From assembly GCA_003162395.1 (NCBI GenBank), contig PMON01000077.1, positions 1 through 55,277 of the forward strand: 55,277 bases of DNA, read 5' to 3'. The DNA is from Acidimicrobiaceae bacterium. Lineage in GTDB: Bacteria > Actinomycetota > Acidimicrobiia > Acidimicrobiales > RAAP-2. The notes beneath the pieces were generated by a model. It did no database searches. It was not told where the DNA came from and was given only the letters and a program-made list of their open reading frames with translations. This document shows, in pieces, positions 16,738 through 52,221 of this stretch; the stretch's first letter is position 1, and each line of letters starts with the position of its first letter. The position numbers and the translations under genes are program-made.

Positions 16738-17052
16738 ATGAGCACAAACGACGACGCGGGGGTGTTCAAGGCACTGGCGGACCCAACGAGGCGCCAGATC
16801 CTTCAGGACCTCAGGGACGGTGAGCTCTCAGCTGGTGAGATTGCGAGTCGGTTTGCAATCACCGCCCAGTCCATATCGAGGCACCTCTCGATCCTTCGTG
16901 GTGCCGGCCTGGTCAAGGAGCGCAGAGAGGCGAATCGGATCTACTACTCGTTGGTGCAAGAGCGCCTGGCGCTGTGTGTCGGCGACTTCCTCTCGACGGT
17001 CTGCCCAGAACAGGTCGTCTTGCGCCATCGTCGTTCAAAGGCTGTGCGATGA
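16738..17052 (+). CDS. ArsR-family winged-helix transcriptional regulator
   Basis: A 104-aa winged-helix repressor with FKALADPTRRQILQDLRDGE, the recognition region ELSAGEIASRFAITAQSISR and RHLSILRGAGLVKERREANR. No Cys-rich metal site is present, so it resembles the SdpR-like, non-metal ArsR group. It lacks a Shine-Dalgarno sequence and uses a leaderless promoter. The stop overlaps the ATG of the DUF2071 gene (ATGA), so the two form an operon and the regulator may control it. Confidence 0.88.
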   Translation: MSTNDDAGVFKALADPTRRQILQDLRDGELSAGEIASRFAITAQSISRHLSILRGAGLVKERREANRIYYSLVQERLALCVGDFLSTVCPEQVVLRHRRSKAVR

Positions 17053-38049: not shown

Positions 38050-38150
38050 CGACAGGCGGCTCGCGTCCGGCTCGCCTTGTCTCGAGAGCGACCCAGTGTG
38101 CTCGCTCGGTGGCGACACGGCGTCCAACTCGCTCGCCGTGTGAGCTCGAT

Positions 38151-38200
38151 CTCGTCCGATCTCGTCCGATCTCGTCCGATCTCGTCCGATCTCGTCCGAT
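38151..38200. repeat. five perfect tandem copies of a 10-bp unit
   Basis: CTCGTCCGAT is repeated five times without change (38151-38200), preceded by a partial copy CTCGAT (38145-38150) and followed by a diverged CTCGCCGAT. The unit length is about one helical turn. It lies 51 bases upstream of the kinase start. Confidence 0.9.
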
Positions 38201-38251
38201 CTCGCCGATGTGGAGATGCGGCTGCGTGGGACAATTGCGTGTGGTTGGCGT

Positions 38252-39225: not shown

Positions 39226-39996
39226 CTAGCCAACCTGCTCGGTGGGTCGTATGAGGATCTCGTTGACGGCCGAGTGCCGGGGCTGGGTCACCATGAAGAG
39301 GACAGACCGAGCGATGTCCTCGGACTGCAACCGCTCGATGGACCCGAATCGTTGGTTGATGGTCGCCAGCACCTCGGGCCGGTTATGGCTTGCGAGCTCG
39401 GTCGCGACGGCGCCCGGCTCGATCAGACCCACGCGAAGGTGTCGTCCCGTCACCTCTTGGCGGATCGCCTCGCTGAATGCATTCACGCCCCACTTCGTGG
39501 CGTTGTAGACCGCACTGCCTGCGCGGGCAACTCGGCCGGCTACCGAGGAGACATTGACCAAGTCAGCCACCCGACGAGGCTGCTGCTCGGCGGCTGCGAG
39601 CAGGTGCGGCAACGCGGCGTGACTGACGTAGAGCAGGCCGCTGAGGTTGAGATCGACCATCCGCTGCCATTCCTCGAGCGGTGCGTCGACGACGGGACCG
39701 AGCAGCATCACGCCCGCGTTGTTCACTACCACGTCGAGGCGGCCGAGCGCCTTGACGGCAGACTGGACTGCGGACTCGGCGGCCGACTTGTCGGTGACGT
39801 CTGCCTCGAGCACAACCGCCCTTCCCCCAGCCTCCCGGATCCGCTGCTCGAGCGCCTCGAGCCGATCGACGCGGCGAGCGACGAGCGCGACGACAGCGCC
39901 CTCGCTCGCGAGCTGCGCGGCGGTTGCCTCGCCGATGCCCGAGCTCGCTCCCGTGATAAGCGCGCCGGTCCCGTCAAGTCGTCCTGTCACGGACAC
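39226..39996 (-). CDS. SDR-family oxidoreductase
   Basis: A 256-aa classical SDR: LITGASSGIGEATAAQLASE, NNAGVMLLGPV, the Ser-Tyr-Lys site VNVSSVAG...YNATKWGVNAFS and C-terminal FMVTQPRHSAVNEILIRPTE. This places it in the YdfG/clavaldehyde-dehydrogenase-like subgroup. The GTG start has no visible Shine-Dalgarno sequence. Substrate unknown. Confidence 0.9.
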   Translation of the reverse strand: MSVTGRLDGTGALITGASSGIGEATAAQLASEGAVVALVARRVDRLEALEQRIREAGGRAVVLEADVTDKSAAESAVQSAVKALGRLDVVVNNAGVMLLGPVVDAPLEEWQRMVDLNLSGLLYVSHAALPHLLAAAEQQPRRVADLVNVSSVAGRVARAGSAVYNATKWGVNAFSEAIRQEVTGRHLRVGLIEPGAVATELASHNRPEVLATINQRFGSIERLQSEDIARSVLFMVTQPRHSAVNEILIRPTEQVG

Positions 39997-41117
39997 TTTC
40001 TAGCGCCCGTCGATGACGAGCGTTCGCACGAGCGTGCAGACGTCGCTCATCGCCCGCACCGAGGCACCTCAGTTCTCTCGCACGTCGTGGGGCCGTGCGC
40101 CTCATGCGACCGCAACGAGGCGAGGTCGTCCAAGACGACTCAAGACTCGACACGACAGGACCACTCCCTGGCGATTGGTGGCGGCCCCGCAGCACGCACG
40201 TCCTGACGATTGCCCCATCGCAGCGGATCTCTTCGCTGCACGGAAGCACACGTGTACGCAGAGAACAGCAACCGAGGAGAGCTGCCGAGGCGACAACCTC
40301 GGCGGTCAACCGGGAACACCTCGTGCACGACAGCGGCCCCCATTGGATTCGCGGTTCCTGCCCTGTACTCCTGACGGTCGGGTTCGTGGCGTCCGTCTCC
40401 GGCGTGGGTCCACTCGGAGAGGTCAGTCCTGCCAGCAGTCACGCTGCCTGAAGGTCATCCAAGACGGAGAACGCCGGCTCGACGAGCCGTCAGCTCCAGG
40501 GCCGTACCGAGGAGTCCAGAATCGAGGTCACTCACCTGTGGCACGTCGTCAGCGACAGTGCCGCAGTTCTCCCATGCCGAGGGCGTTGACAACCAAAGGA
40601 CCACCTGTCCGCTGAGACCTGAAGCCACGACGGCGAGCAGGTGCGCCCCTTCACGACACTCGCGGAGCCCGACGGCGAGCTGCAGTGCCCTGCCCGGTTC
40701 GTCTTCTGGAAGCGATGGGACGAGGCCTGCGAACAGGGGAAGCGCCGTCGGCTCGCACTGTCCCGCAACGAGCCCTCGCTCAGTGCTCCACCGAGCGCCG
40801 GGCGGGCGCAGGCGGCTCACGATGCTGACGAAATTTGCTTCACCGACGTCGACCTTTTCCAACCTTGCTCGCGGGCGCTCTGCGAGTCCCGCTGCTCATT
40901 GCCACACCTCTGTCGTCTGCATCGTCGAGGTTGCACGAATGACCCTCTTGTTTGTGATGTCCGCACGGGTCGATCCTGCTCGCGGAGCGGCCGACCGCCG
41001 CTGACGACGACCGAGGGTAGTTGACGAACGTCCGAACCGGTCTTATCGTGCCACCTCGGGGAGGAAGAAATGGCCGCGGAGACCTCTTGTTGTGTCCGAC
41101 CAGCTAGTCGCGGGATG
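39997..41117. other. long region with no confidently coding frame
   Basis: About 1.1 kb between the SDR and the secreted-protein promoter. Plus-strand frames here are Arg/Pro/Ser-rich and look like shadows. One minus-strand frame (40455-40862) is listed separately as doubtful. I see no RNA gene or mobile element. The region may be decayed coding DNA. Confidence 0.35.
40455..40862 (-). CDS. doubtful hypothetical protein (135 aa)
   Basis: A minus-strand frame with a TTG start and a fairly normal composition (LPLFAGLVPSLPEDEPGRAL, LAVVASGLSGQVVLWLSTPS). Third-position G/C is moderately high. No ribosome binding site with proper spacing and no family that I recognise. It could be a degraded gene. 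Confidence 0.3.
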   Translation of the reverse strand: MEKVDVGEANFVSIVSRLRPPGARWSTERGLVAGQCEPTALPLFAGLVPSLPEDEPGRALQLAVGLRECREGAHLLAVVASGLSGQVVLWLSTPSAWENCGTVADDVPQVSDLDSGLLGTALELTARRAGVLRLG

Positions 41118-41167
41118 CGTTGCCCTAGGGCAACGAAATGCGGAGTGAATTGCCCTAATCCAACGAA
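41118..41167 (+). promoter_or_regulatory. perfect 18-bp palindrome and its imperfect copy 30 bp downstream
   Basis: CGTTGCCCTAGGGCAACG at 41118-41135 is a perfect palindrome. At 41150-41167, TTGCCCTAATCCAACGAA repeats it (TTGCCCTA-N3-CAACGAA in both), offset exactly 30 bp, about three helical turns. The second copy ends just before the AGGAGGG ribosome binding site of the secreted protein. This is the form of a two-site operator for a dimeric repressor (inference). Confidence 0.7.
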
Positions 41168-41178
41168 CAGGAGGGACA

Positions 41179-43128
41179 ATGTCCACACTTAATCTGCGCC
41201 CGGGGGGCCGCGCGCCGACACGTCGGTATGCGCTGACTGCGACACGCAGGCTCCTCGTCGCGTCCTCGCTCATCGTCGCGGTCGCCGGGAGCGCCGCGGT
41301 GACGGCGGGTGCGGCGACGCCGACCCAACGGGGCCAGGCACCCGTGACCGTGCACGTACTGCCCGCGACGTTCCATCAGAGCTACGCCAAGTCGCTCAAC
41401 AGCGTCAGCGCGGCGCAGGCGAACGCCCCCAAGGGCTATTCCTACGCGCGCGGTGTGCATCCCGCGCGCAGCGCCGCGAAAGTCGGTGACAGCTGTGCTG
41501 AGTCGAACTGTCCCTTGCCGTACCTCGGCGGATCCGTACAGCACACGCCGCACGTCTACCTGCTGTTCTGGGGTCCGAACTGGCAGTCGGACTCGACGCA
41601 GGACGCCGCGCTGTTGTACACGGCGCACTTCTTCCAGGGGCTCGGTGACACGTCGAACGACGTCTGGTCGCCGATCATGGACCAGTACTACGACGGCAGC
41701 GGCAACGTCGGCTTCGGCGCCTCCGTCTATGAGAATGCGTACCAAGACTCGTCGGTCCCGCCGTACGACACGTCCCAGTCGCAGCTCGCCGCAGAGGACA
41801 ACGCCTTCCTGTCAGACATAGGCGTCACCGACACGACCGACGCACAGGTGATCATCGCGACCCAGCCTGGGACGTGCCCGAACGGGTTCGCCCCAGGAGG
41901 CTGCCCCGGTTCCCACAACTACTGCGCGTGGCACTCGTATGCCAACTCGCCGTACACGAACCTGCCGTACCAGCCTGACGCTGGAGCCTCGTGTGGCGAG
42001 AACTCCGTGTCCGGCGTCAACGACGGCTTCTCGATCGTCGGCGGGCACGAGTACGCGGAGACCGCGACGGACCCGTTCCTCAACGCCTGGGTCGACAACT
42101 CTGATCCGGGTGGCGGGGAGATCGGCGACAAGTGTGCCTGGACTGATCTCGGCTTGACCTACCTCACGTCCGGCGCGTACCCGACCCAACCGCTGTGGAG
42201 CAACTCCCAGTACTACGGGACCGGCTACGGCTGCACGCAGAATGAGTTCGACCTCAGCCTGTCGCCATCCACGGGGTCCCTGTCGGTCGGTCAGACCGTG
42301 TCGCTGCTGGCGACAACGAACATCTCGATCACCCCGACGCCGTGGTACATCGTGATCATCGACGCGACGACGGACACGATCGTCGGGGCCTGCGGTTTGG
42401 GCACATCCTGCACCGGGACGGAGACCGGGGATTACGCGAGAACCGATTACTTCTACGCCCAGATCTCCCACAGCAACGGGGTAGACGCGAAGCTCGCGAC
42501 GGGGGAGTACGCCGTCACGTGGAATCGAGCGAGCAGCGGCACGGCCGTCAGCATCGGCTTGCCCGCGGCGACTGCCGGAGGCAAGGCGACGGTCGACGTG
42601 TCGGTCACCGGTGCGTTCCCCGGTGCCGGCGTCCTCGCGCCAGGTGGCATCGTGACCGTCGGTGACGGCACGAGGACGTGCATGGCCTCGCTCTCCGGCT
42701 CCAACGGTGCCTCGACGGGCACGTGCCAGTTGACGGAGCCCAACGCCGGTTCGCTCACCGTCTCGGCCTCGTTTGCCGGCGACGCGAACTTCACCGCGAG
42801 CTCGAACACGACGTCACTAACCGTCGGCAAGGCGACGTCGTCGACGGCGTTCGCGCTGTCCAAGGCGTCCATCGCGTTTGGGTCCCAGAAGAACGAGGTG
42901 TTCACCATCAAGGTGACGGCCGCAAAGGGCGGTACGCCCTCTGGAAAGGTCGGTATCTACCAGGGCTACACCAAGGTGTGCAGCGCGACGCTCTACAAGG
43001 GCAAGGCGACCTGCTCGCTCAAGGCCAAGGAGCTGAAGAAGGGCTCACACACCCTCTACGCCTACTTTGGCGGCGACAAGAACCACACGGGCTCATCGTC
43101 CAAGACGGCGAAGCTGAAGATCACGTAG
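41179..43128 (+). CDS. secreted HEYAE-domain protein with Ig-like repeats
   Basis: A 649-aa exported protein with signal LLVASSLIVAVAGSAAVTAG. Residues 105-355 form a domain with HVYLLFWGPNWQSD, AQVIIATQPG, NYCAWHSY, H290-E-Y-A-E294 in GGHEYAETATDPFLNAW, GEIGDKCAW and PLWSNSQYYGTGYGC. It resembles bacterial PHI-1/EXORDIUM-like or metallopeptidase-like proteins; HExxE plus Asp could bind metal (inference). Residues 360-649 are Ig-like repeats, the last basic (KAKELKKGSHTLYAYFGGDK). AGGAGGG precedes the ATG. A paralogue lies at 49331-51127. Confidence 0.75.
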   Translation: MSTLNLRPGGRAPTRRYALTATRRLLVASSLIVAVAGSAAVTAGAATPTQRGQAPVTVHVLPATFHQSYAKSLNSVSAAQANAPKGYSYARGVHPARSAAKVGDSCAESNCPLPYLGGSVQHTPHVYLLFWGPNWQSDSTQDAALLYTAHFFQGLGDTSNDVWSPIMDQYYDGSGNVGFGASVYENAYQDSSVPPYDTSQSQLAAEDNAFLSDIGVTDTTDAQVIIATQPGTCPNGFAPGGCPGSHNYCAWHSYANSPYTNLPYQPDAGASCGENSVSGVNDGFSIVGGHEYAETATDPFLNAWVDNSDPGGGEIGDKCAWTDLGLTYLTSGAYPTQPLWSNSQYYGTGYGCTQNEFDLSLSPSTGSLSVGQTVSLLATTNISITPTPWYIVIIDATTDTIVGACGLGTSCTGTETGDYARTDYFYAQISHSNGVDAKLATGEYAVTWNRASSGTAVSIGLPAATAGGKATVDVSVTGAFPGAGVLAPGGIVTVGDGTRTCMASLSGSNGASTGTCQLTEPNAGSLTVSASFAGDANFTASSNTTSLTVGKATSSTAFALSKASIAFGSQKNEVFTIKVTAAKGGTPSGKVGIYQGYTKVCSATLYKGKATCSLKAKELKKGSHTLYAYFGGDKNHTGSSSKTAKLKIT

Positions 43129-43156
43129 ACCTCTAACGACGTCCATCGCCGGAACG

Positions 43157-43210
43157 GAGGCGGGTGCACGACGAGTTGCCAGCATCGCTGGCCCGTCGTG
43201 CACCCGCCTC
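43157..43210 (+). terminator. nested double hairpin after the secreted-protein gene
   Basis: Outer stem: GAGGCGGGTGCACGACG (43157-43173) pairs perfectly over 17 bp with 43194-43210. The 20-base loop contains a second stem, GCCAGC-ATC-GCTGGC (43178-43192). It starts 28 bases after the stop codon. No U tract follows, as is common in high-G/C Actinobacteria. Confidence 0.75.
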
Positions 43211-43306
43211 ACCGGTGAAGGGGCCCGGACTACACGGGGCGGCGCTGCCTGCTGCGACGACGGACACGATCTAGGATCCCTTGAGCTCATGTGGGAGCGA
43301 CAGCTC

Positions 43307-43520
43307 CTAAGTCACCACGGCCTGAATCGCGGACTTCAGGGCCCCGATCTCGTCGTGCGACCGCCGATGGGGATGCGACCGCGGGTCGATGGGACCACCG
43401 ACGTACAGGTCGTCTAGATGGCGCGGGAAGAGATGCAGGTGCGGAAGCGCGTTGCTACCAGCCGCTGACCCCGCGCTCCATGGGCATCGGTCCTAGTGCC
43501 GGTGCAATCTCGGTGAGCTG
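43307..43520 (-). pseudogene. remnant of a HIT-family hydrolase (C-terminal part)
   Basis: Minus-strand reading gives GSNALPHLHLFPRHLDDLYV then GGPIDPRSHPHRRSHDEIGA and LKSAIQAVVT, ending at TAG 43307-43309. PHLHLFPR is the histidine-triad active-site pattern (H-x-H-x-x) of HIT-like hydrolases. Upstream, in another frame, QLTEIAPALG matches the preceding helix of that family. The N-terminal domain is missing, and at least one frameshift or deletion separates the pieces. Confidence 0.5.
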
Positions 43521-43764: not shown

Positions 43765-44202
43765 TCAGGACGAGAGCTGGCGATACGGCACACTCCGTGC
43801 GGTGGCTGCCGAAAGGAGCGGCGGATTGAGGTCGTGTGCCGCGAGGCAGAGCTCTGCATCGAGATACTCGGCCGCCGCCAGTGCCTCGAGCGACATCAGG
43901 TTGAGTGTCGGGTGATCCTTGAGGACTCCCGCCATGACCCAGGCGAGCTCTCGCATGGACGTCAAGCCAATGGATTGCGGCAGCATCGTCACCGCTCGAA
44001 TGGCGCCTGTCGCGACAGAATCCTCAACGTTGCCCAGCATGCGGGTGAAGATCCCGACGACGCCCGGTTTGGCGACGGCACGACAGAGCCTGTGGTACCA
44101 GAGCCCGGTGGTGTAAATGCGTGATCCCGCATCCCGTAGGTCCGAGGGCTCGTTGTCGAGAAGCACGCGCAGAAGAACGTGGTCGTCGACGAGTACGTCC
44201 AA
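43765..44202 (-). CDS. PIN-domain-like toxin
   Basis: A 145-aa protein. LDVLVDDHVLLRVLL at the start places acidic residues on the first strand as in PIN nucleases. The final part, LAAAEYLDAELCLAAHDLNP then PLLSAATARSVPYRQL, is the typical PIN ending with Asp/Asn. It begins at a TTG nine bases after the antitoxin stop, in the same frame, with TAGGA upstream. Expected to cleave RNA and be held inactive by the AbrB-type partner. The central region is unusual for VapC, so the subfamily is uncertain. Confidence 0.68.
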   Translation of the reverse strand: MDVLVDDHVLLRVLLDNEPSDLRDAGSRIYTTGLWYHRLCRAVAKPGVVGIFTRMLGNVEDSVATGAIRAVTMLPQSIGLTSMRELAWVMAGVLKDHPTLNLMSLEALAAAEYLDAELCLAAHDLNPPLLSAATARSVPYRQLSS

Positions 44203-44211
44203 AATCGATTC

Positions 44212-44454
44212 CTATCCGAGTTCCGGCTCTTCGGCTGCTACCTCGGCCACCAAGTGCTCGAACCCACCAGCTTCCGCGATCGCATTCCCGAGAAGAGCTC
44301 GAAGTCCGCCTCTCCCCGCAGGAACGATCAGGATCGCCGGGCCTAGATCGGCCAACTCGACCGCGCCTCCTTCACTCAGATTCCATCGTCGTCTGGCTTC
44401 GGCCGGCAGCGCCATCTGGCCCCTGTCGGACACGCGAAACACCGAGAGCTCCAT
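44212..44454 (-). CDS. AbrB/SpoVT-type antitoxin
   Basis: An 80-aa swapped-hairpin DNA-binding protein: MELSVFRVSDRGQMALPAEA, RRRWNLSEGGAVELADLGPA, ILIVPAGRGG, then an acidic helical tail (IAEAGGFEHLVAEVAAEEPE) suited to toxin binding. It is transcribed from a leaderless promoter and lies directly before the PIN-like gene. It probably autoregulates the pair. Confidence 0.83.
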   Translation of the reverse strand: MELSVFRVSDRGQMALPAEARRRWNLSEGGAVELADLGPAILIVPAGRGGLRALLGNAIAEAGGFEHLVAEVAAEEPELG

Positions 44455-44491
44455 ACCGCGATGGTACCATCTGCCTTGTAAGGTCACAAGG
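44455..44491 (-). promoter_or_regulatory. toxin-antitoxin promoter and operator
   Basis: On the minus strand: -35 TTGTGA (44484-44489), a 17-bp spacer, -10 TACCAT (44461-44466), six bases, ATG at 44454. Two perfect inverted repeats overlap these boxes: CCTTGT-N6-ACAAGG (44474-44491) covers the -35 and GATGGTACCATC (44460-44471) covers the -10. Binding of the AbrB-type protein would block transcription (inference). Confidence 0.75.
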
Positions 44492-44721
44492 TGGACCTGT
44501 AGACCGAATGACGGGAACGGGGACAGTAGTGATCCGAGTTCGCGCGACGAAGAGGCCGCTCGACCGCCTTCCCCTGCTCGAACGCCGCACGCTCGACACG
44601 CGACCCTCCCCATTGGACGACTAGTACGCAACGTCGTCTTCTCTCGACCAATCTCGCGCTTCTTGTCAACGAGCCGACGCTGATCCCCGTGCTGGCTCCG
44701 TGTGCTCCCTCGGCGTCACTC

Positions 44722-49330: not shown

Positions 49331-51127
49331 TTAGTACGGCCTGGTGCTGCTGGCGTAGAAGACCGCAGCGGACGTCGTGCCACGCCATGCCGCGACGAGT
49401 GTGTCGCCGGTCGTGGTGATGGCGGGAGCGAGCGTGGTGCCTGCCTGCGGCTGGGTCCGCTGGTGTGAGAAGTCGTCGTGGGAGCCGTTGTACCCGAACG
49501 ACATGACGTAGGAGACCTTCGTCGACGCCCCCAGTCCCTTGTAGGCGACGACCACGGTCTTGGAATTCAACAGGGCGATGCTTGGCGACTTGTCGGTGAG
49601 GGCGCCGGGGATCGTCTGGATCAACCCGGCTGCCCAGCCGAACGCCGTGAAGGCCTCGGTATCGACCGTATGACTGCTGGTCGTCCATGCCACCGTAAGG
49701 ATCGCGAGTTTCGCGCTCGGCGTGCCGGTGATCGCCGGGGCGAGCTGGGTGCTCGCACCGTGCACCGCCAGGGGCGCATGCCAGGTGCCGCTGTTCTCCG
49801 TCGTGGCGTAGACACTCGTGTTGCGCTTGCCTTTGTAGACGAGCATCAGCGTGTTGCGATTCACGCCCAATGCAGGCGCCGCGCTGGTGGCTGCCGACCC
49901 CCAGGTGCCACGTACCGTCGCCTGTGGCGACCAGCTGGTGCCGTCAGATGACGTCGAGTAGAAGATCGAACCGGTCGTGCCGTCACCTCGCCACGCCGCG
50001 TAAAGCACGCCGCCGATGGCCGCGAGTGCAGGTGGCTGATTCGTCTTCGCCTGACCCCAGGGCCCCTCGATCGTGGCTTGGGTTGTCCAGGTGGTTCCGT
50101 CGTAGGCGGAATAGAAGATGGCGTTGCCCGTGGTGCCCACCCAGGCCACGTACAACTTGTCCTTGAAGTACCTCGCGGCGGGCGACATGTTGGTGAGGGC
50201 CTGAGGCTGCGTGGCCTGCCCACGCCAGATCGGAGGTCCGGCGGTCGTCGCGCACCCGTTGAGCGCGTTGGACCAGATCGCCTGGACGGCGAAGGTGCCC
50301 GTCGTCAAGGTCTCGAGGGCATCGCCGGAGGCCTTGTTCTCGCACTTGTCGCCGATCTCGCCGTGGGTGGCGTCGCGCCAGCCGCCGCTGAGATCGGTCA
50401 CGCTCTCGGCGTACTCGTGGCTCTCCAAGATCGTGTAGCGCTCCACGGGGGTCCAGTTCGGCAGCTGAATGTCGCACGCCCCGCGTGGCCAGTCGGGCAG
50501 GTAGGGCAGGTTGGTCCACTCCAGCAGTCCCAACGCTCCGGCGCCGTGCTGCTTGTGGTAGGCGCAGGTGCTGCCACCTGGATGGAGCCCTGGCGTGGTC
50601 CCGTGGGGCGAGGCGATGACGTACTGGGCGTTGAGGTTCGACGCCGGAGTGAGGTTGCCGAAGTGCTTGGCCGACGCCGTCACCTCATTCGTCAGTTGCT
50701 GGCTGGACGCGGACGACGGCTCCGGTGAGGCGTTGTCGATCCACACCCCCTTCAGCGGCGAACGAGTCGGGTGCACGACGTGCGTGCCCGAGTGGCCGCA
50801 GTTCGTGGTGTCGACGGGCACGCCTTCGCAGTACTGGTCCAGAATCTGGCCCCACGTGTCGTCCGCCCCGTACAGGCCCTTGAAGAGCCGTTGAAGCGCG
50901 GGCTTCAGGCCGTCTGGGTCGGTCGACCACTGGGATCCCCAGAAGATCAGGTACACCGCGGGGTGGACTTCGACAACGCCGGTTGGGCTGCTCGAGCCGA
51001 TATGCAGCGGTGACACGTTGTCCGCGTACGCCACTTGGGGGAGCACCATCGCGATGGTGCAAGCGGCGACGATCGCCACCACGGCACCGCGACCCAGCCG
51101 GGATCGATCTGAGTGCCTGGCGAGCAC
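49331..51127 (-). CDS. secreted HEYAE-domain protein with beta-propeller repeats
   Basis: Paralogue of the 41179 gene over its N-terminal domain: VYLIFWGSQWSTD, AQYVIASPHG, WTNLPYLPDW, ESHEYAESVTDLSGGWRD, GEIGDKCEN and AIWSNALNGC. After about residue 285 it has repeats of the form LYVAWVGTTGNAIFYSAYDG, TTWTTQATI, probably a lectin-like propeller. Signal VVAIVAACTIAMVLPQVAYA. I prefer GTG 51127, with AGGTGG about six bases upstream; ATG 51151 would add eight residues. HEYAE begins at residue 237. Confidence 0.76.
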   Translation of the reverse strand: MLARHSDRSRLGRGAVVAIVAACTIAMVLPQVAYADNVSPLHIGSSSPTGVVEVHPAVYLIFWGSQWSTDPDGLKPALQRLFKGLYGADDTWGQILDQYCEGVPVDTTNCGHSGTHVVHPTRSPLKGVWIDNASPEPSSASSQQLTNEVTASAKHFGNLTPASNLNAQYVIASPHGTTPGLHPGGSTCAYHKQHGAGALGLLEWTNLPYLPDWPRGACDIQLPNWTPVERYTILESHEYAESVTDLSGGWRDATHGEIGDKCENKASGDALETLTTGTFAVQAIWSNALNGCATTAGPPIWRGQATQPQALTNMSPAARYFKDKLYVAWVGTTGNAIFYSAYDGTTWTTQATIEGPWGQAKTNQPPALAAIGGVLYAAWRGDGTTGSIFYSTSSDGTSWSPQATVRGTWGSAATSAAPALGVNRNTLMLVYKGKRNTSVYATTENSGTWHAPLAVHGASTQLAPAITGTPSAKLAILTVAWTTSSHTVDTEAFTAFGWAAGLIQTIPGALTDKSPSIALLNSKTVVVAYKGLGASTKVSYVMSFGYNGSHDDFSHQRTQPQAGTTLAPAITTTGDTLVAAWRGTTSAAVFYASSTRPY

Positions 51128-51170
51128 GGCACACCACCTTTCCTTAACCATGCGCGTACTAACGCCCGCA

Positions 51171-51191
51171 CCGTTGAAGGCGGGTCAACGG
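51171..51191 (-). promoter_or_regulatory. inverted repeat upstream of the second HEYAE-domain gene
   Basis: CCGTTGA-N7-TCAACGG, a perfect 7-bp inverted repeat, 43 bases upstream of the preferred start. Its CGTTG...CAACG core also occurs in the palindrome at 41118, with a spacer one base shorter. Confidence 0.4.
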
Positions 51192-51696
51192 CGGTCAAGT
51201 CAGCGCCAAACTTCGTTCGGTAGGCCCGCTCCTGCTCGAAGACAATAGCAAGGTGTCCAGGCCAAATTCTTTTTGGGTTGGCAGCATTTTGTGGCGCATG
51301 GAAGGCAGTGCGATGCCAGCCGCCCAGGCACGTTGATGCTCACCCTTGAGATGTCGCTCCGGGCCCGTCGAACTCGATTTCGGCTCTCGGTCATCTGGAG
51401 GCGTGTAATGCGGCGACGACGGCAGCCACCGAAGGATCGACGGCATCTTTTGTTGTCTGCCAGTTGGGTACCGCGTCCTCGTCGCATCGGGGTCCCATGG
51501 CGAATCTGCCCGCCCACGCGCACCGGATCGCATCGCGAGTTGGTGCGCCGGGGACGTGCACCTCCCACGTCTCGTCGGTGCGTCTGGGCGCTTGGGAGGG
51601 GCCGTGCCCCGCAATGGCCCGGGTCTACCGTGGAGGTCGTCGCGAGGCAGGCGGCGGCGGGCCGCGCTCGTGGCTCAATCAGCGAGGAGGACTGAG

Positions 51697-52221
51697 ATGT
51701 CCAAGGGGATCAAGTTCATGACGGTGTCGCGGGTAGGTCTCGCTGTCGTTGTCGCCATCACGGCGGCAATCGTTGTAGGCGGTGTGAGCTACGCGTCGAT
51801 TCCTGACAGCAGTGGGGTGATCCATGGCTGTTACAAGGTCCGGGGGGCGGCCTCGCCCCTGAGTGTGCTCAACACTTCCATCCACCCAAAGTGCCCGAAC
51901 GGAGACACGGCGCTCAGGTGGGACACGAGTCCCCCGGGCATCGGTGTAGCGACCGGCGTCGCAACTCCCGCCAGCAATGGCGGCGCGACGTGCACCCTGG
52001 GCGAGGTCTCCCTCTTTGCACAGCAGGGCAGGTATCTGCCGATCAACTACATGATCGCGAAGGGACAGACACTCATGATCAGCTCATACACGGCGTTGTT
52101 CGCCCTCTTGGGTACGTCGTACGGTGGGAACGGGACGTCAACATTCAAGCTCCCCACTCTGCAGTCTCTGGCGCCCGACCACATGACCTATGCCATCTGT
52201 GCGTACGGTATTTTCCCCTGA
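51697..52221 (+). CDS. secreted tail-collar-domain protein
   Basis: A 174-aa exported protein. Membrane/signal segment VGLAVVVAITAAIVVGGVSY is followed by the actinobacterial surface motif SGVIHGCYKVRG...KCPNGDTALRWD. A C-terminal phage tail-collar (MdpB-like) domain follows: LGEVSLFA, NYMIAKGQTLMISSYTALFA, LLGTSYGGNGTSTFKLPTLQ. Probably an adhesin-like or cell-surface knob and not a phage remnant, as no other phage gene is near. GAGGAGG precedes the ATG. Confidence 0.78.
   Translation: MSKGIKFMTVSRVGLAVVVAITAAIVVGGVSYASIPDSSGVIHGCYKVRGAASPLSVLNTSIHPKCPNGDTALRWDTSPPGIGVATGVATPASNGGATCTLGEVSLFAQQGRYLPINYMIAKGQTLMISSYTALFALLGTSYGGNGTSTFKLPTLQSLAPDHMTYAICAYGIFP

Follow-up and report, generated by a model that had tools for sequence, protein, structure and literature searches.

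In Escherichia coli, the MarR sites of marO are two TTGCC-type dyads near one promoter, with 12-bp cores and the regulator encoded next to them. For the MarR-family protein SAV4189 of Streptomyces avermitilis, the published operator passages give a 13-bp sequence, TTGCCYKHRSCAA, present as three sites in the regulator's own promoter region (PMC6036246). In Mycobacterium smegmatis, a MarR protein covers the region from -35 to -7 relative to its start codon, and the passages that treat its 21-bp motif report no other target, so operators with a single target are known; the same passages mention the marO palindromes (PMC4143341).

Here we set beside these systems a palindrome and its imperfect second copy at the start of a secreted-protein gene in an Acidimicrobiaceae genome. 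The window, the whole stretch of DNA analysed, is 55,277 nucleotides long. We tentatively put the site forward as a candidate single-gene operator for a MarR-like dimer.

Results

The two sites and the gene that they precede are arranged as follows.

41110-41167, + strand: 28-nt direct repeat, two copies at 30-bp spacing, holding both sites
41118-41135, no strand assigned: perfect 18-bp palindrome (copy 1), CGTTGCCCTAGGGCAACG
41150-41167, + strand: copy 2, TTGCCCTAATCCAACGAA, matching 41120-41137 at 15 of 18 positions
41179-43128, + strand: gene for a 649-aa protein, downstream of both sites

The palindrome is exactly symmetric at 41118-41135, as the first-pass annotation had stated, and the second site that it placed exactly 30 bp downstream, by the ribosome-binding site, is also present: TTGCCCTA-N3-CAACGAA matches at all 15 specified bases at 41150-41167, with a start-to-start distance of 30. 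The repeat is longer than that annotation reported, with 28-nt copies (41110-41137 and 41140-41167) that are 75% identical. Copy 2 lies immediately 5' of the ribosome-binding site of the 649-aa secreted-protein gene and is not palindromic itself, symmetry being kept only in TTG...T and the mirrored A...CAA (4 of 9 pairs). The proposed placement on one helix face is approximate only, 30 bp being ~2.9 turns. When tested for the half-sites of a MarR-type operator, the palindrome proved to contain TTGCC-like half-sites.

How unusual is this arrangement? The window holds four perfect 18-bp palindromes against 0.66 expected per simulated window, the other three all inside ORFs, and eight direct repeats (at least 15/18 within 60 bp) against 1.97 expected per window, three of the eight belonging to a single 10-bp tandem array. 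By chance, a window would hold either part by itself about once or twice. This favours the possible reading that the site has no function and consists of an accidental inverted repeat and a small tandem duplication, both lying between two genes in freely drifting DNA derived from a pseudogene and noticed since many windows were read for oddities. Against this, a palindrome with a direct repeat touching it occurs once in the window and in 0 of 2000 windows simulated with an order-2 Markov model, and both features sit exactly at a gene start. A stricter first joint test, which required a repeat to match the 18-mer of the palindrome itself at 15/18 positions, left the present site uncounted because copy 2 matches that 18-mer at only 13/18. 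CTAG-centred 18-bp palindromes numbered 14 in the 2000 simulated windows, and CTAG is depleted in the window (26 observed where base composition predicts 174). All of these tests were framed after the site had been seen, and their null is without tandem duplication. The operator-like geometry holds up, and pure chance is an unlikely explanation for it.

The 649-aa protein has a signal-peptide-like N-terminus (by eye), a HEYAE-containing domain whose HExxE stretch is kept in relatives, and an Ig-like Big_3_5 domain at its C-terminus. Its main domain has no Pfam name over cut-off and no solved relative by sequence, and the sole hint at a wider family is a resemblance to Phi_1 that is partial and below threshold (E 0.22). 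Counting the own genome in each case, relatives occur in 37 of the 172 genomes of the family and in 17 of the 296 of the class, and one paralogue is encoded 8 kb away.

49331-51151, - strand: paralogue of the secreted protein (match 50243-50986, E 7.1e-61)
51172-51190, - strand: inverted repeat CGTTGACCCGCCTTCAACG (CCGTTGA-N7-TCAACGG, looser CGTTG-N9-CAACG), just upstream of the paralogue start

Other features of the window include a 10-bp unit, CGATCTCGTC, repeated 6.4 times at 38147-38209 directly 5' of an APH_6-like kinase ORF at 38210; an AbrB/MazE-type antitoxin ORF (44212-44631) and, after it, a 145-aa ORF without a label, together at 43765-44631 on the minus strand and possibly a toxin-antitoxin pair; and a 221-aa ORF (51556-52221, plus strand) that matches a phage tail collar domain (E 7e-15).

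The small regulon of secreted proteins that the first-pass annotation envisaged is mostly not borne out, as the own genome, of 2.65 Mb and 86.7% complete, yielded no second good site. The genome search that it proposed returned further near-matches almost exclusively in ORFs, at 7 of 8 places with at most one mismatch to the site and at 8 of 8 with at most three mismatches to the palindrome. Over three genome patterns, 26 of 30 near-match loci lie within ORFs, the 30 taking in only 14 places of the third pattern, and TTGCC-N4-GGCAA with at most one mismatch is not enriched in the own genome (54 forward versus 85 for the reversed control). The 14-bp core occurs in 1 of 172 family genomes, the own genome, and in 0 of the 171 others; such uniqueness speaks for a site without function.

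The orthologue check suggested by the same annotation also turned out negative, with the site absent from all 23 homologue upstream regions judged, each from another genome. A start could be judged at 25 of the 55 homologue loci (L066-L120), own gene and paralogue included. TTGCC-N0-10-GGCAA lies upstream at one of the 25, the own gene, and GTTG-N4-12-CAAC at four (own gene, paralogue, L068 at -185 and L102 at -100). No alignable upstream DNA was seen among the homologues, no close DNA relatives were found on plasmids, and genome-wide collection by protein found no locus.

The looser outer arms before the paralogue offer one weak lead for the envisaged regulon. CGTTG-N7-10-CAACG, a pattern chosen after the second case had been seen and with half-site spacings that differ (8 and 9), occurs at 16 genome places, hardly more than the 14 of the control. 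Three of the 16 are intergenic (the 15 classified by locus comprise 13 in genes and 2 intergenic, and the 16th, at 51172-51190, lies outside listed genes), and two of these three directly precede two of the genome's three members of the secreted-protein family. The leader of the third member (L119) contains no such site by eye.

Across 257 Gb, the 16-bp core was found in 40 stretches, about equal to the random estimate of 60 at equal base use, and none of 47 occurrences of the 16-mer (3 viral, in 43 stretches) is accompanied by another copy within 80 bp; both results add to the case for no function. Of the 47 occurrences, 25 lie within palindromes of at least 20 bp, and the letters of the 16-mer alone name no single regulator. 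A literature search found no paper containing TTGCCCTAGGGCAA.

Some of these occurrences recur among related genomes. In three Hyphomicrobiales (L137:6958, L144:5803, L154:6582), the 16-mer lies between rseP-like and bamA-like genes, identified by eye, with partly shared flanks. Candidatus Staskawiczbacteria genomes (L121, L123, L126, L130, L132, L133, L145, L150, L158) contain several copies of a GGTTGCCCTAGGGCAACC-type palindrome, apparently a dispersed repeat, and three Ktedonobacter genomes (L139, L141, L153) have 56-62 bp palindromes around TTGAAGGCCCTGGTTGCCCTAGGGCAACCAGGGCCTTCAA.

Three further features bear on whether the site would act as DNA or as RNA.

41021-41049, + strand: promoter-like TTGACG-17-TATCGT, the sole sigma-70-type match in 39990-43400
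41070-41192, + strand: possible 40-codon upstream ORF that overlaps the main start, its ATG preceded by GGGGAGG
41169-41175, + strand: AGGAGGG, the Shine-Dalgarno of the secreted-protein gene, with which copy 2 can pair

TANNNT occurs a single time between 41030 and 41178, supplied by the promoter-like site, from whose position a transcript start near 41056 can be inferred. As it is the sole such site, both copies probably lie within the mRNA leader, if this promoter is used. Control by the leader RNA, which we consider unlikely, would involve a transcript from ~41056 in which copy 1 forms a hairpin and copy 2 (AUUGCCCUAAUCC) pairs with GGAGGGACAAU, hiding the Shine-Dalgarno and start codon; translation would be turned on when heat, a ligand or ribosomes translating the upstream ORF open the pairing. 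The placement of both copies downstream of the only promoter-like site is consistent with such control, as are the many 16-mers elsewhere that lie within a longer stem-loop and the energy needed to open the Shine-Dalgarno (8.96 kcal/mol versus 4.76, sd 1.95, in shuffles, with 5 of 300 as high). However, 64 of 300 shuffles are as high when a wider stretch (41165-41190) is opened, 3 of 60 are as high with shorter flanks, where the gene comes third of 28 tested, the whole-leader fold is not unusual (z -0.84), an Rfam search gave no match, and the right arm of copy 1 pairs with copy 2 in only ~3% of the ensemble. As RNA, copy 1 has a 7-bp stem and a CUAG loop (fold -10.6 kcal/mol). A hairpin needs no symmetric loop, and a DNA operator is favoured over it because the symmetry runs through the centre.

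The upstream ORF has a codon score of -8.0, below ~97% of non-coding stretches, which argues against its being coding and counts against leader control. The copies of the direct repeat differ at all three of its codon positions, so there is no sign of protein selection on the repeat, and we dropped the idea of a coding repeat. Derivation of the ORF from the neighbouring SDR gene, with which it shares ATK-GVN, was likewise dropped (E 0.038 among many comparisons). A composite translational switch can be imagined in which copy 1 would fold on itself, copy 2 would mask the ribosome-binding site, and translation of the cysteine-rich 40-codon ORF, which runs through both copies, would unmask the start of the cysteine-containing secreted protein; we consider this highly improbable.

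The first-pass annotation noted that no regulator gene is adjacent. This stands for intact genes, the neighbours being SDR, AMP-binding, APH and others without a MarR match, and no MarR-family gene being adjacent or divergent; it overlooks the remnant of a divergent gene in the 1.18 kb upstream of the secreted-protein gene.

40424-40910, - strand: decayed gene, probably of the SCO6745/HTH_67 family, divergent to the secreted-protein gene, N-terminal part unrecognisable

The open frame of this gene is not intact, with a frame change and in-frame stops, one TGA falling inside the profile match. It scores 30.4 and 31.3 bits against the Pfam profile (cut-off 27) and 30.9 bits, below the cut-off of 120, against the NCBIfam profile. 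An intact paralogue (L201) on another contig is matched by tblastn at E 3e-14, with 77% identity over 22 C-terminal residues. Decayed DNA in this position is consistent with a palindrome without function. It also suggests that the site might be a relic operator, once bound by the product of the divergent gene, a putative DNA binder. The lost start, extrapolated from the profile or the intact paralogue, falls at ~41120-41129, at the palindrome, and the frame-changed, stop-bearing remnant is itself what such a history would leave. Yet the family is present in 97 of 120 relatives while the 14-bp core is confined to one family genome, the place of the intact paralogue (C56:47576-48268) is not among the site matches, and DNA binding by the SCO6745 family is putative, a literature search having found no paper that names SCO6745. 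We therefore regard a relic as very unlikely; it would be a minor example of a control site beside a gene that has decayed.

Candidate regulators are encoded in the genome, with 12 matches to MarR_2 (10 over cut-off), the nearest within the window at 16816-16932, and 13 to TetR_N. None of these MarR or TetR loci looks self-regulated by the site, because TTGCCCTANNNCAAC with at most two mismatches is carried by 0 of 25 (77,194 bases, in a genome 86.7% complete).

Discussion

So, is the site an operator? We rank a single-gene operator first, with no function close behind, followed by an RNA switch and then a relic. The dedicated repressor proposed in the first-pass annotation is partly supported: the operator-like geometry argues in favour, but the checks suggested there speak mostly against it, no intact regulator gene is adjacent and none of the 25 MarR/TetR loci carries the site. 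A homodimeric, MarR-like winged-helix regulator may bind strongly at the perfect palindrome and, about three helical turns on, at the weaker copy 2. It would thereby cover the leader of the secreted-protein gene together with the region of its ribosome-binding site, and would repress the gene until released by a ligand. The gene for this putative regulator, not being next door, would lie elsewhere in the genome or in its unassembled part. The two sites, their spacing and their position are established; protein binding, regulator family and direction of effect are our reading of the sequence.

The single-gene operator is favoured because the two sites lie about three turns apart with TTGCC half-sites resembling those described for SAV4189 (PMC6036246), and is supported by the absence of the palindrome and repeat together from simulated windows, by a CTAG centre in a CTAG-avoiding stretch, by the looser outer arms before a paralogue, by the MarR_2 and TetR_N matches in the genome, and by the precedent of a single-target operator in M. 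smegmatis (PMC4143341). It is weakened by the lack of recurrence or conservation in the genome, the 171 other family genomes, the 23 homologues and the 25 MarR/TetR loci, and by a half-site spacer of 4 where SAV4189 has 3. Because the promoter-like site ends 69 bp before the palindrome, a protein on the palindrome would have to work as a roadblock, and such a location is less usual.

The site is probably an ordinary one whose interest is purely local, and neither the operator nor the relic would involve a new kind of system. Should it be an operator, it would open a way to study how a secreted-protein family without a named main domain is controlled in this lineage.

Like E. coli marO, the locus has two TTGCC-type dyads near one promoter; marO differs in its 12-bp cores and adjacent regulator. 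The predicted leader would resemble that of M. tuberculosis ppe2 in an out-of-frame upstream ORF over the main start and a masked translation start region. The ppe2 leader is riboswitch-controlled, with a 4-nt AUGA overlap, and was demonstrated experimentally (PMC11260477), whereas here the features are predicted only, the overlap is 14 nt and the ORF is not coding-like. The operator passages for SAV4189 describe the same TTGCC/GGCAA-type half-sites and more than one site per control region, although over 13 bp with a 3-bp spacer rather than 14 bp with a 4-bp spacer, and with an adjacent, self-regulated regulator gene where none is adjacent here (PMC6036246). The operator of the M. smegmatis MarR (Ms6508), in the passages that describe it, has an unrelated 21-bp sequence and a regulator encoded by the regulated operon, but shares with the present site an inverted repeat near the start codon and a single target in the genome (PMC4143341).
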